A stretch of 64,000 nt of DNA, taken from Puniceicoccus vermicola (GTDB lineage: Bacteria; Verrucomicrobiota; Verrucomicrobiia; Opitutales; Puniceicoccaceae). The first letter of the stretch is position 1. The number at the start of each line of letters is the position of its first letter. Under the pieces are notes generated by a model. That model had not been told where the DNA came from, searched no databases, and saw only the letters and a program-made list of their open reading frames with translations. The stretch lies in the NCBI RefSeq assembly GCF_014230055.1, contig NZ_JACHVA010000080.1, positions 1 through 64,000 of the forward strand, read 5' to 3'. The translations under genes were made by a program, and so were the position numbers. Shown in pieces: positions 19,237 to 57,356 of the stretch.

Positions 19237-19440
19237 CGGGCGAGGCTGAAAGCCATGCGCGAAAGTAGCGAGAGCTTCCAGCTCTCGATTTGCGGCACAG
19301 GCTGGAAGCCTGTGGTCCGGGGGATTGCGTCTCTCGCCGCAATGAATCGCACGACTCAAGTCATGCGAGAACGGTGGGGCCGAAAGTAGGGAGGGCTCCC
19401 ATGCTTCTCTCGGCAACTTCAGCTGCGCCCTGCGTCTGGC
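19237..19440. repeat. REP-like element, family A (single copy of the hairpin set also found at 34.1-34.7 kb)
   Basis: Three perfect or near-perfect hairpins follow the RND gene: cgagagct-tcc-agctctcg (19269-19287), cacaggct-gga-agcctgtg (19296-19314) and cgcacgact-ca-agtcatgcg (19348-19367, one mismatch). The first and third recur, in the same sequence, in each unit of the tandem array at 34081-34720, so these are copies of one dispersed repeat family. Confidence 0.75.
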
Positions 19441-19732
19441 TCTGCGCGGGCAAGGTTGAAGCCATGCCTCACAGTGGGTAGGTCGCTTCAGCGCCTACCG
19501 CGGATGGTCTTGGAGAGGTTTTTTTGTGTGTGGTAAGCTTTAGTCCGGTCGGGTGCTTTGCTGAGCCTGCGCGGGCAAGGCTAAAGCCATGCCCCACAGT
19601 GGGCTAGGTCGCTTCAGCGCCTACCGCGAATGGTCTTGGAAGGACACTTTTGTGTGAGGTAATCCTCAGCCCGTTCGGGAGCCTTGTTGAGCCTGCGCGG
19701 GCAAGGCTGAAGCCATGCCCCACAGTGAGAGT
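19441..19732 (+). repeat. Left part of the ~125-bp tandem hairpin repeat flanking the RAYT gene (3 copies)
   Basis: The anchor caaggctaaagccatg (with variants) occurs at 19451, 19576 and 19702, a period of 125-126 bp. The third unit runs into the end of the RAYT gene. Each unit carries nested hairpins: gggca..ggct-aaa-gcc..tgccc, then ggtagg..cgc-ttca-gcg-cctacc, and ccggtcgg in a ctcag...ttgag context. Confidence 0.85.
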
Positions 19733-20377
19733 CTAGGTCTCTAGATGAAGGAAGGGATAGTCTTCACTCTTTCTGCAGAGGTTGGCTTTCACGGGGTTCT
19801 GGGCCAGATATTTTTGCCAAGATTGGTATTCCGTAGCGTTGCGAATCCATCGGTCGTACCCGTAGGTCTGCCAAAATTTACCACTTCGATTTAAATATTG
19901 ATTGAGGAAACGAGCAGAACGTCCTTTGAAGCGCATCCAGATTCGTTTGAATTCCTCAATGCTGTGGAGATGGATAGGCCGAGTGAGCAGGTGAATATGG
20001 TTAGGCATAATCACGAAGTCTGAGAGTTCCAATTGGTCTCCTTTGTATTTTCGCAACCATACGTCGAAGGCTTTGGAAACCTCGAGCCTACTAAAGGGAG
20101 TGAACCCCCATCCTCGGTCTAAGTATTCGTCCAGACAGAGAAAAACCTTTCGTCGAGCCTTCTCGGCCTCCGGACTCTTCGGTTCTACGGTCTGGAGAAA
20201 TCGTTTCTGTTCCTCGAGTTGAAGAATCGTCGTCGAGGGGAGACTGCCTGCGCATCGGAGAGTTACGGAATAGCGCCCGTGTTCGACAACCCAATGAGGA
20301 AGGTCGTCTTGGTAAATGCCTAGAAAACGAGTACTCCAATCAAAAGGGGCGCTGTCTCTGGAAATGGAGCGGCTCAT
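19733..20377 (-). CDS. REP-associated tyrosine transposase (RAYT, Y1_Tnp / IS200-like domain)
   Basis: 214 aa. The HUH nuclease motif is clear (MPNHIHLL, near residue 114-121), and the tyrosine-bearing C-terminal signature of RAYTs follows (FWQTYGYDRWIRNATEYQSWQKYLAQNPVKA-type, near 170-200). RAYTs are single-copy, domesticated relatives of IS200/IS605 transposases that cut and are thought to spread REP hairpins. Here the gene sits inside a head-to-tail array of ~125-bp hairpin repeats (3 copies on one side, 9 on the other), which is strong contextual support. The frame is intact. Confidence 0.88.
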   Translation of the reverse strand: MSRSISRDSAPFDWSTRFLGIYQDDLPHWVVEHGRYSVTLRCAGSLPSTTILQLEEQKRFLQTVEPKSPEAEKARRKVFLCLDEYLDRGWGFTPFSRLEVSKAFDVWLRKYKGDQLELSDFVIMPNHIHLLTRPIHLHSIEEFKRIWMRFKGRSARFLNQYLNRSGKFWQTYGYDRWIRNATEYQSWQKYLAQNPVKANLCRKSEDYPFLHLET

Positions 20378-20399
20378 CTTGAGATTGATGGAATGCAGT

Positions 20400-21447
20400 T
20401 CTGGCTGCAGGGCAAGCCAGAAGCCATGCCCACAGTGGGTAGGTCGCTTCAGCGACTACTGCGGATGGTCTTGGAGAGACACTTTTGTGTGAGGAAATCC
20501 TCAGCCCGGTCGGGTGCTTTGCTGAGCTCTGCGCGGGCAAGGCTAAAGCCATGTCCCACAGTGGGTGGGTCGCTTCAGCGCCTACCGCGAATGGTCTTGG
20601 AGGGACACTTTTGTGTGTGGCAATCCTCAGTCCGGTCGTGAGCTTTGCTGAGCTCTGCGCGGGCAAGGCTAAAGCCATGCCCCACAGTGGGTGGGTCGCT
20701 TCAGCGCCTACCGCGAATTGGTCTTGAGGGCCATTTTGTGTGAGGTAATTCTCAGCCCGGTCGGGAGCTTTGTTGAGCCAGCGTGGGCAAGGCTAAAGCC
20801 ATGCCCCACAGTGGGTAGGTCGCTTCAGCGCCTACCGCGAATGGTCTTGGAGGGACACTTTTGTGTGTGGCAATCCTCAGTCCGGTCGGGTGCTTTGCTG
20901 AGCTCTGCGCGGGCAAGGCTAAAGCCATGCCCCACAGTGGGTGGGTCGCTTCAGCGCCTACCGCGAATTGGTCTTGAGGGCCATTTTGTGTGAGGAAATC
21001 CTCAGCCCGGTCGGGAGCTTTGTTGAGCCAGCGTGGGCAAGGCTAAAGCCATGCCCCACAGTGGGTAGGTCGCTTCAGCGCCTACCACGAATGGTCTTGA
21101 GGGCCATTTTGTGTGAGGTAATCCTCAGCCCGGTCGGGAGCTTTGTTGAGCCAGCGTGGGCAAGGCTAAAGCCATGCCCCACAGTGGGTAGGTCGCTTCA
21201 GCGCCTACCACGAATGGTCTTGGAGAGACACTATTGTGTGAGGTAATTCTCAGCCCGGTCGGGAGCTTTGTTGAGCCTGCGTGGGCAAGGCTAAAGCCAT
21301 GCCCCACAGTGGGTAGGTCGCTTCAGCGCCTACCACGAATGGTCTCAGAGAGACACTTTTGTGTGAGGTAATCCTCAGCCCGGCCGGGAGCCTTGTTGAG
21401 CTCTGCGTGGGCAAGGCTAAAGCCATGCCCCACCGGGCTTCCTCTAT
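20400..21447 (+). repeat. Right part of the ~125-bp tandem hairpin repeat array (9 copies)
   Basis: Anchors lie at 20413, 20538, 20664, 20788, 20914, 21038, 21161, 21286 and 21412, a period of 123-126 bp, all in the same orientation as the three copies left of the RAYT gene. Units are close to identical but alternate between two variants (agctctgcgcggg and agccagcgtggg joints). Each unit can fold into three hairpins. The open frames running through this DNA on both strands are products of the repeat and not genes. Confidence 0.93.
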
Positions 21448-33997: not shown

Positions 33998-34080
33998 GGG
34001 GAGGGGGAGATAAGGGGGATTCTCCCCTCCGATTTGGACCTTCTGCGAAATCGGCGGAAAACGGAGCCCCATTCTTCGTC

Positions 34081-34720
34081 GATGAATCGCACGACTAAAG
34101 TCATGCGAGAACGGGAGAGCCAAAGTAGCGAGAGCTTCCAGCTCTCGATTTGCGTCCTGCGCAGTGCAGATCTACTTACCCAATGGGAGGCTGTCGAGAA
34201 TGTCAGCCCCCACGTCCGGTCGATGAATCGCACGACTAAAGTCATGCGACAACGGAGGAGCCAGAGTAGCGAGAGCTTCCAGCTCTCGATTTGCGTCCTG
34301 GCCGATGCAGATCTACTTACCCATGAGGATACTGTCGAGATTGTCAGTCCCCGCGTCCGTTCGATGAATCGCACGACTAAAGTCATGCGAGAACGGGAGA
34401 AGCCAAAGTAGCGAGAGCTTCCAGCTCTCGATTTGCGTCCTGGCCGATGCAGATCTACTTACCCAAGAGGATACTGTCGAGAATGTCAGTCCTCCACGTC
34501 CCGTCGATGAATCGCACGACTAAAGTCATGCGAGAACGGGAGAAGCCAAAGTAGCGAGAGCTTCCAGCTCTCGATTTGCGTCCTGGCCGATGCAGATCTA
34601 CTTACCCATGAGGATACTGTCGAGATTGTCAGTCCCCGCGTCCGTTCGATGAATCGCACGACTAAAGTCATGCGACAACGGAAGAGCCAAAGTAGCGAGA
34701 GCTTCCAGCTCTCGATCCCC
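34081..34720 (+). repeat. Tandem array of five ~142-bp repeat units (REP-like family A)
   Basis: The anchor gatgaatcgcacgact occurs at 34081, 34222, 34363, 34506 and 34648, a period of 141-143 bp. Each unit has two stems: cgcacgact-aa-agtcatgcg (one mismatch) and cgagagct-tcc-agctctcg. The ~75-bp spacer between units, containing gcagatctacttaccca, is conserved too, so the array arose by unit duplication. The same two stems occur once at 19269-19367. No RAYT gene is adjacent. The array fills the 827-bp gap between cysI and the outer-membrane protein gene; open frames through it are repeat artefacts. Confidence 0.93.
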
Positions 34721-56399: not shown

Positions 56400-57356
56400 A
56401 TGAGACGGAAACGGATGATTATCAAGGGGCAGACGAGTTACTACCATGTAATGAGTCGGACGGTGAATGGGGAGGCTCTCTTTGGAGATTGGGAGAGGGA
56501 GGTTTTGCGGAAGATGATTTGGCAGGTGGCTGATTTCTCGGGGATCCGGGTGGTTACTTATGCGGTGATGAAGAACCACTTTCATGTTTTGGTGGAGGTG
56601 CCGGCGGAGGTTAGTATTTCGGATGAGGAGTTGGTGCGAAGGTATCGTCGGCTTTACCCTCAGCCTACTCCTTGGAATCCGATGCCGGCAGAGGTGTTAG
56701 AGGGGCATCTTCGGGAGAATACTTCGGAAGGGAGGGATTTGCGGAAGAGTCTTTTGCGTCGGATGGGGGATGTTTCCTGGATGATGAAGACTCTTAAGCA
56801 GCGTTTTGCAATGTGGTTTAACCGGTCGCGGGATCGTTTTGGGCATCTGTGGGCGGAGCGATTTAAGAGTGTCCTTGTGGAAGGGGATCGTTGGGCTTTG
56901 CGGACGGTGGCTGCCTATATTGACCTGAATGCGGTTCGGGCGGGGCTGGTTGAGGATCCTAAGGATTATCGGTTTTGTGGGTATGCCGAGGCACTGGGAG
57001 GGAGTCGGATGGCTCGGGTTGGGCTTTCTGTGGTCGATAAGGATTTGGCTGTGTATCGTCAGACTTTGTATGGCGCGGGTGCTGGGGAGAAGGATGAGAA
57101 GAAGTCGATCTCTCGGGAAGAAGCGGTGCGGGTGTTGGAAGAGGAGAAGGGGAAATTGCCTCTGTCTGTGGTTTTGCGGTGCCGGGTGCGGTATTTTACG
57201 GACGGGATGGTGCTGGGATCGGCTGCTTTTGTGGAAGAGCATGTTCAGACCGAGAGTTCTGGAGGCAAGCGTCCCAAGCGGGCGCATGCGATGAGTGGGG
57301 CTGACTGGGGTGGTTTGGCTGTCGGGACTGGGTTGCGGAAGGGGTTGTTCCGCTGA
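56400..57356 (+). CDS. Y1_Tnp (IS200-like HUH nuclease) domain protein
   Basis: 318 aa from the ATG at 56400, where family homology begins (MRRKRMIIKGQTSYYHVMSR); 13 upstream in-frame residues are A/T-rich. HUH motif: KNHFHVLVEV near residue 60. Further on FNRSRDRFGHLWAERFKSVLVEGD and AAYIDLNAVRAGLVEDPKDY match Y1 proteins of the large-transposase type. The C-terminal third is extra and basic. Its codon use (many ggg, ttt, ttg) differs from most neighbours, suggesting different ancestry. No clear ends or repeats flank it within ~100 bp, so it may be domesticated. Confidence 0.85.
   Translation: MRRKRMIIKGQTSYYHVMSRTVNGEALFGDWEREVLRKMIWQVADFSGIRVVTYAVMKNHFHVLVEVPAEVSISDEELVRRYRRLYPQPTPWNPMPAEVLEGHLRENTSEGRDLRKSLLRRMGDVSWMMKTLKQRFAMWFNRSRDRFGHLWAERFKSVLVEGDRWALRTVAAYIDLNAVRAGLVEDPKDYRFCGYAEALGGSRMARVGLSVVDKDLAVYRQTLYGAGAGEKDEKKSISREEAVRVLEEEKGKLPLSVVLRCRVRYFTDGMVLGSAAFVEEHVQTESSGGKRPKRAHAMSGADWGGLAVGTGLRKGLFR

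Follow-up and report, generated by a model that had tools for sequence, protein, structure and literature searches.

A RAYT-like transposase gene between tandem arrays of two-hairpin repeats in Puniceicoccus vermicola: a probable REPtron with linkers of nearly constant length

REP elements, RAYT genes and the tandem structures called modular BIMEs or REPIN clusters have been described in several bacterial groups. Between them, the accessible parts of four papers already cover RAYTs with modular BIMEs on one or both sides, REPIN clusters repeated in tandem together with DNA that flanks them, REPs headed by GTGG, verrucomicrobial REPs and the growth of BIMEs by a rolling-circle model (PMC2817692, PMC3116915, PMC3733652, PMC8266576). 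As far as the accessible text of Nunvar et al. 2010 goes (PMC2817692), a RAYT stands next to head-to-tail modules of two inverted REPs with a GT(A/G)G head, which is also the head of the REPs flanking RAYTs in Stenotrophomonas. One third of the RAYTs examined there are BIME-associated, the E. coli rayt carries BIME-2 on both sides, and rolling-circle amplification was proposed by these authors as the model. In P. fluorescens SBW25, REPINs are found in tandem with flanking sequence and REPIN clusters lie beside each RAYT, and a second mechanism was inferred for the formation of clusters (Bertels and Rainey 2011, PMC3116915, accessible part). For a verrucomicrobial genome, the available text of Di Nocera et al. 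2013 (PMC3733652) gives the GTAG-20 REPs of Opitutus terrae a head that is mostly GTGG, and states that REPs in general form dimers reiterated in tandem along with flanking DNA.

The window, which is the whole stretch of 64,000 nucleotides analysed here, holds a system of this kind: it is probably a REPtron with modular BIMEs, or tandem REPINs, as described since 2010-2011. A sequence-only reading of the same DNA had taken as its premise that REPs occur singly or as pairs, and had suggested that the system could be unusual. The premise is incomplete, since tandem REP clusters (BIMEs and REPIN clusters) are described in the texts available, and the word unusual has little support for a RAYT flanked by modular BIMEs, which was already published, on both sides of the gene in E. 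coli (PMC2817692, accessible part). The length of the linkers between the hairpins is the sole unusual trait. In the literature searched, which consisted largely of papers outside subscription, we found none on this genus or on a constant linker length in RAYT arrays.

Two arrays far above chance were detected around a gene for a 214-aa protein by Tandem Repeats Finder (TRF), one on the left (19442-19727; period 126, 2.3 copies, score 435) and one on the right (20410-21433; period 125, 8.2 copies, score 1623). A profile of the conserved 52-nt core, with the units of the window as seed, counted 12 copies of the unit of about 125 bp, 3 on the left and 9 on the right of the gene. The third copy on the left (core 1-33) and the last one on the right (core 1-27) are cut, and the other ten are whole or nearly so. 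The array around the gene, as first read from the letters, is thus real (Table 1). Its right terminus is CCAC, 12 bp short of a DUF4139 gene. The alternation of two variants, which had also been claimed, was found for five units, which run A B A B B, and does not extend outside them: the A type (20535 and 20785) is 97% identical between its copies and the B type (20661, 20911 and 21035) 97-98%, while A and B share 89-90%. Array ends fall at differing points of the unit, so that a single fixed cleavage point at these ends is unsupported.

Table 1. Coordinates of the features around the RAYT-like gene (positions of the window)
Feature	Position	Strand	Evidence
RAYT-like HUH/Y1 transposase gene, 214 aa	19733..20377	-	PF01797, NF047646, PDB 4er8
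Left array: two units in full and a third that is cut (H1 plus CACAGTG)	19442..19731	+	TRF, core profile
Right array: eight units and a terminal H1	20410..21435	+	TRF, core profile
Higher-order A-B dimer, two occurrences, about 250 bp each	20535..21034	+	
Representative unit, 126 bp	20785..20910	+	
Hairpin H1, REP in inverted orientation; GTGG and hairpin on minus strand	20785..20806	+	core fold z -4.1; core alignment
Hairpin H2, forward REP with GTGG before it	20814..20836	+	three base pairs changed on both sides
Linker specific to the array, 74 nt, folding at chance level	20837..20910	+	

The core of the unit consists of H1 (GGGCA.GGC....GCC.TGCCC), a short junction and H2 (GGTAGG.CGC....GCGCCTACC). 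In the alignment of 24 cores the two hairpins are mutually inverted, each is GTGG-headed on its own strand, and they abut as CCAC-A-GTGG. None of 200 shuffles folded as well as the two-hairpin core did as DNA (z -4.1), the whole unit is weakly above shuffles (z -1.3, 23 of 200 as good), and the linker folds no better than they do (z +0.3, 111 of 200 as good). The three hairpins of the earlier reading are therefore reduced to two, H2 and H1. Compensatory changes in H2 involve three pairs and 9 cells, a cell count that none of 500 shuffles attained (shuffle mean 1.7), and base pairing in H2 is under constraint; the same covariation test revealed in H1 no pair with changes on both sides. As definition of a REP element we applied a hairpin of 20-50 nt after a GTAG-like head, with GTRG allowed, and the repeats conform to it by their hairpins, the covariation of H2 and the GTGG head before H2 and, on the other strand, H1. 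The order H1 (reverse), H2 (forward) and linker, repeated head-to-tail, is that of a modular BIME or tandem REPIN. The hairpins are imperfect, with a mismatch or bulge, like those of group 2 REPs. The likeness to the GTAG-20 REPs of O. terrae is one of the GTGG head as described in print (PMC3733652, accessible part).

The 214-aa protein just passes the cut-off of PF01797 (23.7 bits against 23), and its only NCBIfam match, NF047646 (REP_Tyr_transpos), scores 68.2 bits, under the curated cut-off of 80. A sequence search of PDB returned 4er8 (E 0.0005). The same entry, E. coli TnpA-REP with a REP hairpin, is the top fold match of an AlphaFold2 model (pLDDT 88.9, pTM 0.82, 25 sequences), with E 1.8e-6 and TM by target 0.60, and IS608, ISDra2 and other IS200-type enzymes rank below it. 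H127-x-H129 and Y190 do not vary in either of two alignments, of 12 and of 25 sequences, and we take Y190 to be the catalytic tyrosine of Y1 transposases. Judged by the model, the gene is RAYT-like, with intact HUH and tyrosine residues and a predicted fold nearest TnpA-REP. The protein resembles TnpA-REP in fold and in these residues, a likeness drawn from sequence and model, but the identity in the structural alignment is 13% and the head is GTGG, not GTAG. That the gene between the arrays is RAYT-like is borne out by the family matches and by 4er8 in both sequence and fold, with the NCBIfam score under its cut-off; the wider REP/RAYT reading also holds, on the two inverted GTGG-headed REPs, their abundance across the genome and TnpA-REP as the nearest structure. 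REPs lie within 35 bp of the gene on both sides. Published RAYTs are flanked by inverted REPs, whereas the nearest intact REPs here are H1 in the same orientation on both sides. The stop codon of the transposase is located 2 bp beyond the cut left unit, and a degenerate H2-like stretch at this codon would restore the inverted flanking.

A second tandem array of the window, at 34079-34716 (141/285 bp), belongs to another REP-like family (GAGAGCTTCCAGCTCTCG) with 125 matches in the genome, including an array beside a RAYT at G000:C16:514-1065, which is probably the cognate enzyme of that family. Degenerate copies of its repeat occupy 19249-19401, between an RND pump gene and the left array, and two REP families are therefore present in one gap.

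Linker length is nearly constant while linker sequence is not. Among all 81 linkers measured, 67 are 70-77 nt long, and the others are 79 nt (one), 86 nt (eight), 122, 144, 187, 188 and 189 nt. We also compared 17 distinct linkers, one medoid per array, with six of 23 arrays merged with near-identical ones and with linkers above 90 nt (L079_11055, L082, L088) and arrays that have no measurable linker set aside. Sixteen of the 17 are 72-76 nt and one is 86 nt, and their sequences are largely diverged. Pairs that align better than dinucleotide shuffles (p < 0.05) make up 27 of 78 in the window's own genome (G000; 5.2 Mb, 143 contigs), 6 of 6 in a genome of the same genus (G002) and 18 of 52 between the two. 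With this weak but above-chance similarity between arrays, the linkers seem to descend, with divergence, from a single unit and to have been homogenised array by array, and an origin by independent captures of unique DNA was rejected in part. In Stenotrophomonas, another phylum than the Verrucomicrobiota of the window, the inter-REP segments are non-homologous and of variable length in the accessible account (PMC2817692), whereas those of the window's family are partly homologous. For SBW25 the largest REPIN cluster given in the available text has four REPINs and one REP (over 700 bp), apart from separate 12-REP arrays (PMC3116915), against up to about ten units here. In two arrays of G002, L159 and L161, the distance from H2 to H1 is held at 73-79 nt and the stretch from H1 to the next H2 is different and longer, which argues that H2-linker-H1, a REPIN, is the coherent unit.

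Some arrays depart from the common form. The 187-189-nt linkers of L079 (11055-11591) and L082 (6400-6692) contain, by eye, a second REP-like stretch that resembles the repeats beside the RAYT at C127:8083, and these units are probable hybrid BIMEs. Among the large arrays, L081 (5469-6795) alone has an 86-nt linker; its period is 138 bp and it contains one 58-bp internal duplication.

The repeat is abundant in G000. A search with the unit gave 95 matches at E <= 1 (40 of 51 first-look candidates scored), so that the absence of other copies, named beforehand as grounds for dismissal, does not apply. The core profile found 103 matches in the loci examined, most of them within tandem arrays; single copies, often half ones, are also present. 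Groups of two or more cores number 19 outside the window, on many contigs, besides the two halves in the window. Near-identical linkers are shared by arrays at the start of C136 and the end of C139, and by those at the ends of C76 and C19, and each pair is probably one array. Arrays with at least two cores number about twenty in G000. A second locus with the linker type of the window is C134:66134-66627 (90-92% identical). Between called ORFs, 22 arrays fall into 13 tandem, 7 convergent and 2 divergent gaps (background 183, 37 and 34); these ORF calls are crude, and any ORF whose overlap with an array exceeded 30% had been removed beforehand, so the intergenic placement is not independent.

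For the association with RAYT genes we summarized 25 RAYT-like loci from G000 and related genomes, namely 22 at E <= 1e-20 and, from G000, three that score lower; G000 has ten matches at E <= 1e-8, of which the weakest, on C52, was omitted. An array was called adjacent if TRF reported it with a period of 40 or more within 200 bp, a limit set after the distances had been seen. By this rule 9 of the 25 loci have an adjacent array, on both sides in 5, and 16 have none; at three further RAYT-like loci outside the 25, G002:C41, G001:C15 and G001:C5, no adjacent array was found either. The five loci are the window, G000:C127 (8083), G000:C16, G002:C39 and G024:C123, and both their periods (126, 108, 107-108, 110 and 89-90 bp) and their repeats differ. 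Near RAYTs, 14 arrays were observed against 0.18 expected, where the expectation comes from 7 arrays in a 400 kb control (twenty stretches at round coordinates on eight contigs) and the p-values are exploratory. Eight of 80 named RAYT loci from many phyla have a near array (one of them, L205, is the same record as G002:C39), with 9 arrays in 58 kb near the genes against 2 in 197 kb far from them. Tandem arrays are enriched beside RAYT loci compared with elsewhere.

In L162 (G002:C39, 5709-7646, 110 bp) and L169 (G024:C123, 3968-5936, 89-90 bp), a RAYT is situated between two arrays whose repeats are quite unlike those of the window and whose architecture is alike. Y1 transposase ORFs of about 320 aa form a distinct family in high copy number, with members at 56436-56624 (+) of the window and at about 40 more places in G000.

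In 52 genomes searched with the unit, the core occurs in two, G000 and G002, and the unit is absent from G001 of the same genus. The two RAYT-like genes of G002 are 39% and 28% identical to that of the window, and no copy of the window's core was found near either; the 39% one bears different repeats. From these sequences G002 appears to keep the repeat family, in tandem arrays, while lacking a closely related RAYT, unless the gene was missed by the draft; ongoing dependence of the family on the window's RAYT is therefore at most a possibility. At the site of the window, G002 has the same convergent pair of genes (RND pump, 83%; DUF4139 protein, 71%) with a gap of about 265 bp, in which neither core nor array was detected, an empty site. 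The condition that the repeat have no link with RAYT presence in relatives thus gets a mixed answer: the core accompanies the RAYT in G000, but in G002 it exists without a close one, and for RAYT genes in general, arrays are far more often beside RAYT loci than elsewhere.

In one gap downstream of a conserved gene there is a single core in G000 (L086, about 5213) and a four-core array in opposite orientation in G002 (L152, 5611-6004), which suggests independent insertions into one gap. A proposed synteny of the paired arrays G000:C134 and G002:C4 was rejected, for the arrays alone align.

We consider it probable that the gene and its arrays make up a REPtron, in which a HUH/Y1 transposase gene of RAYT type is embedded in a modular BIME, here an array of REPINs in head-to-tail order. 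This reading is supported by the empty gap in G002, the covariation of H2, the hairpin folds, the many matches and arrays across the genome, the 4er8 fold with its invariant catalytic residues, the constant H2-H1 distance in L159 and L161, the enrichment beside RAYTs and the published anatomy; the arrays of G002 with no close RAYT, the sub-cut-off NCBIfam score, the 16 of 25 loci and three further ones that have no array, the same-orientation nearest REPs and the variable array ends count against it. The REPIN would be GTGG-H2, a linker of about 74 nt and H1-CCAC, with neighbours abutting and one base between CCAC and GTGG. By analogy with E. coli TnpA-REP, the protein would recognise a single-stranded hairpin with its GTGG head, cut beside it and join the ends, and whole REPINs would thereby be copied to new intergenic sites. 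In the least certain step, cleavage by the RAYT may start or favour local tandem amplification, by rolling-circle or strand transfer on the REPIN, and recombination or slippage between identical units may then homogenise each array, so that each would come to have linkers of its own and, in the window, unit types that run A-B-A-B-B. It is likely that the RAYT is what spreads the REPINs, and plausible that it also makes the arrays.

The main competitor, which we rate a little below an even chance, confines the RAYT to spreading single REPINs and lets the arrays grow only by RecA-dependent unequal crossing-over or replication slippage, acting on repeats rich in hairpins. Unequal exchange is expected to produce just such a unit order and homogeneity within arrays, the array ends are variable, and G002 has arrays of the family that lack a close RAYT; on the other side, slippage by itself would not be expected to yield the strong concentration of arrays around RAYT genes, except if that is simply where REPs are densest. 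Maintenance of the arrays for a host role of the kind attributed to E. coli BIMEs (binding of gyrase, IHF or Pol I, transcription termination, protection of mRNA 3' ends) seems unlikely. BIME-2 does bind gyrase in E. coli (PMC2817692, accessible part), and convergent gaps hold 7 of 22 arrays against 37 of 254 in the background (one-sided p 0.04, exploratory), but this excess is weak and comes from the crude ORF calls, the orthologous gene pair in G002 has no array, and linker sequence differs between arrays. The regular period with direct repeats could also have no connection with the gene and mark a CRISPR-like locus, an attachment site for a phage or DNA that encodes a structured RNA. We hold this to be very improbable: the window has no Rfam match at gathering thresholds, the RNA fold of the unit is unremarkable (z -0.9), and many copies exist genome-wide. 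CRISPR itself was rejected, as the units include their linkers, which are near-identical within an array, unlike spacers.

Within the preferred reading of a RAYT inside a REPIN array, the linkers allow a more specific proposal, which we put forward as speculative. In this lineage the RAYT might act on a REPIN of fixed length, with either the complex that cleaves or a circular single-stranded intermediate gauging the H2-H1 spacing of about 74 nt. Units of that length alone would then be copied and amplified into head-to-tail arrays, the linker sequence would drift while its length is held, and the arrays adjacent to the RAYT would be the donor stock of the genomic family.

The arrays bear on the question of how REPs spread and why they come to stand in tandem next to RAYTs. 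Arrays lie at several contig ends, which are points of assembly breakage, and their annotation is useful even if they are ordinary. The near-constant linker length across diverged arrays is a specific and testable constraint, and the several RAYTs of G000, each enclosed by arrays with a repeat of their own (126, 108 and 107-108 bp, with 110 bp in the congener), make up a compact natural test set for RAYT-driven amplification.
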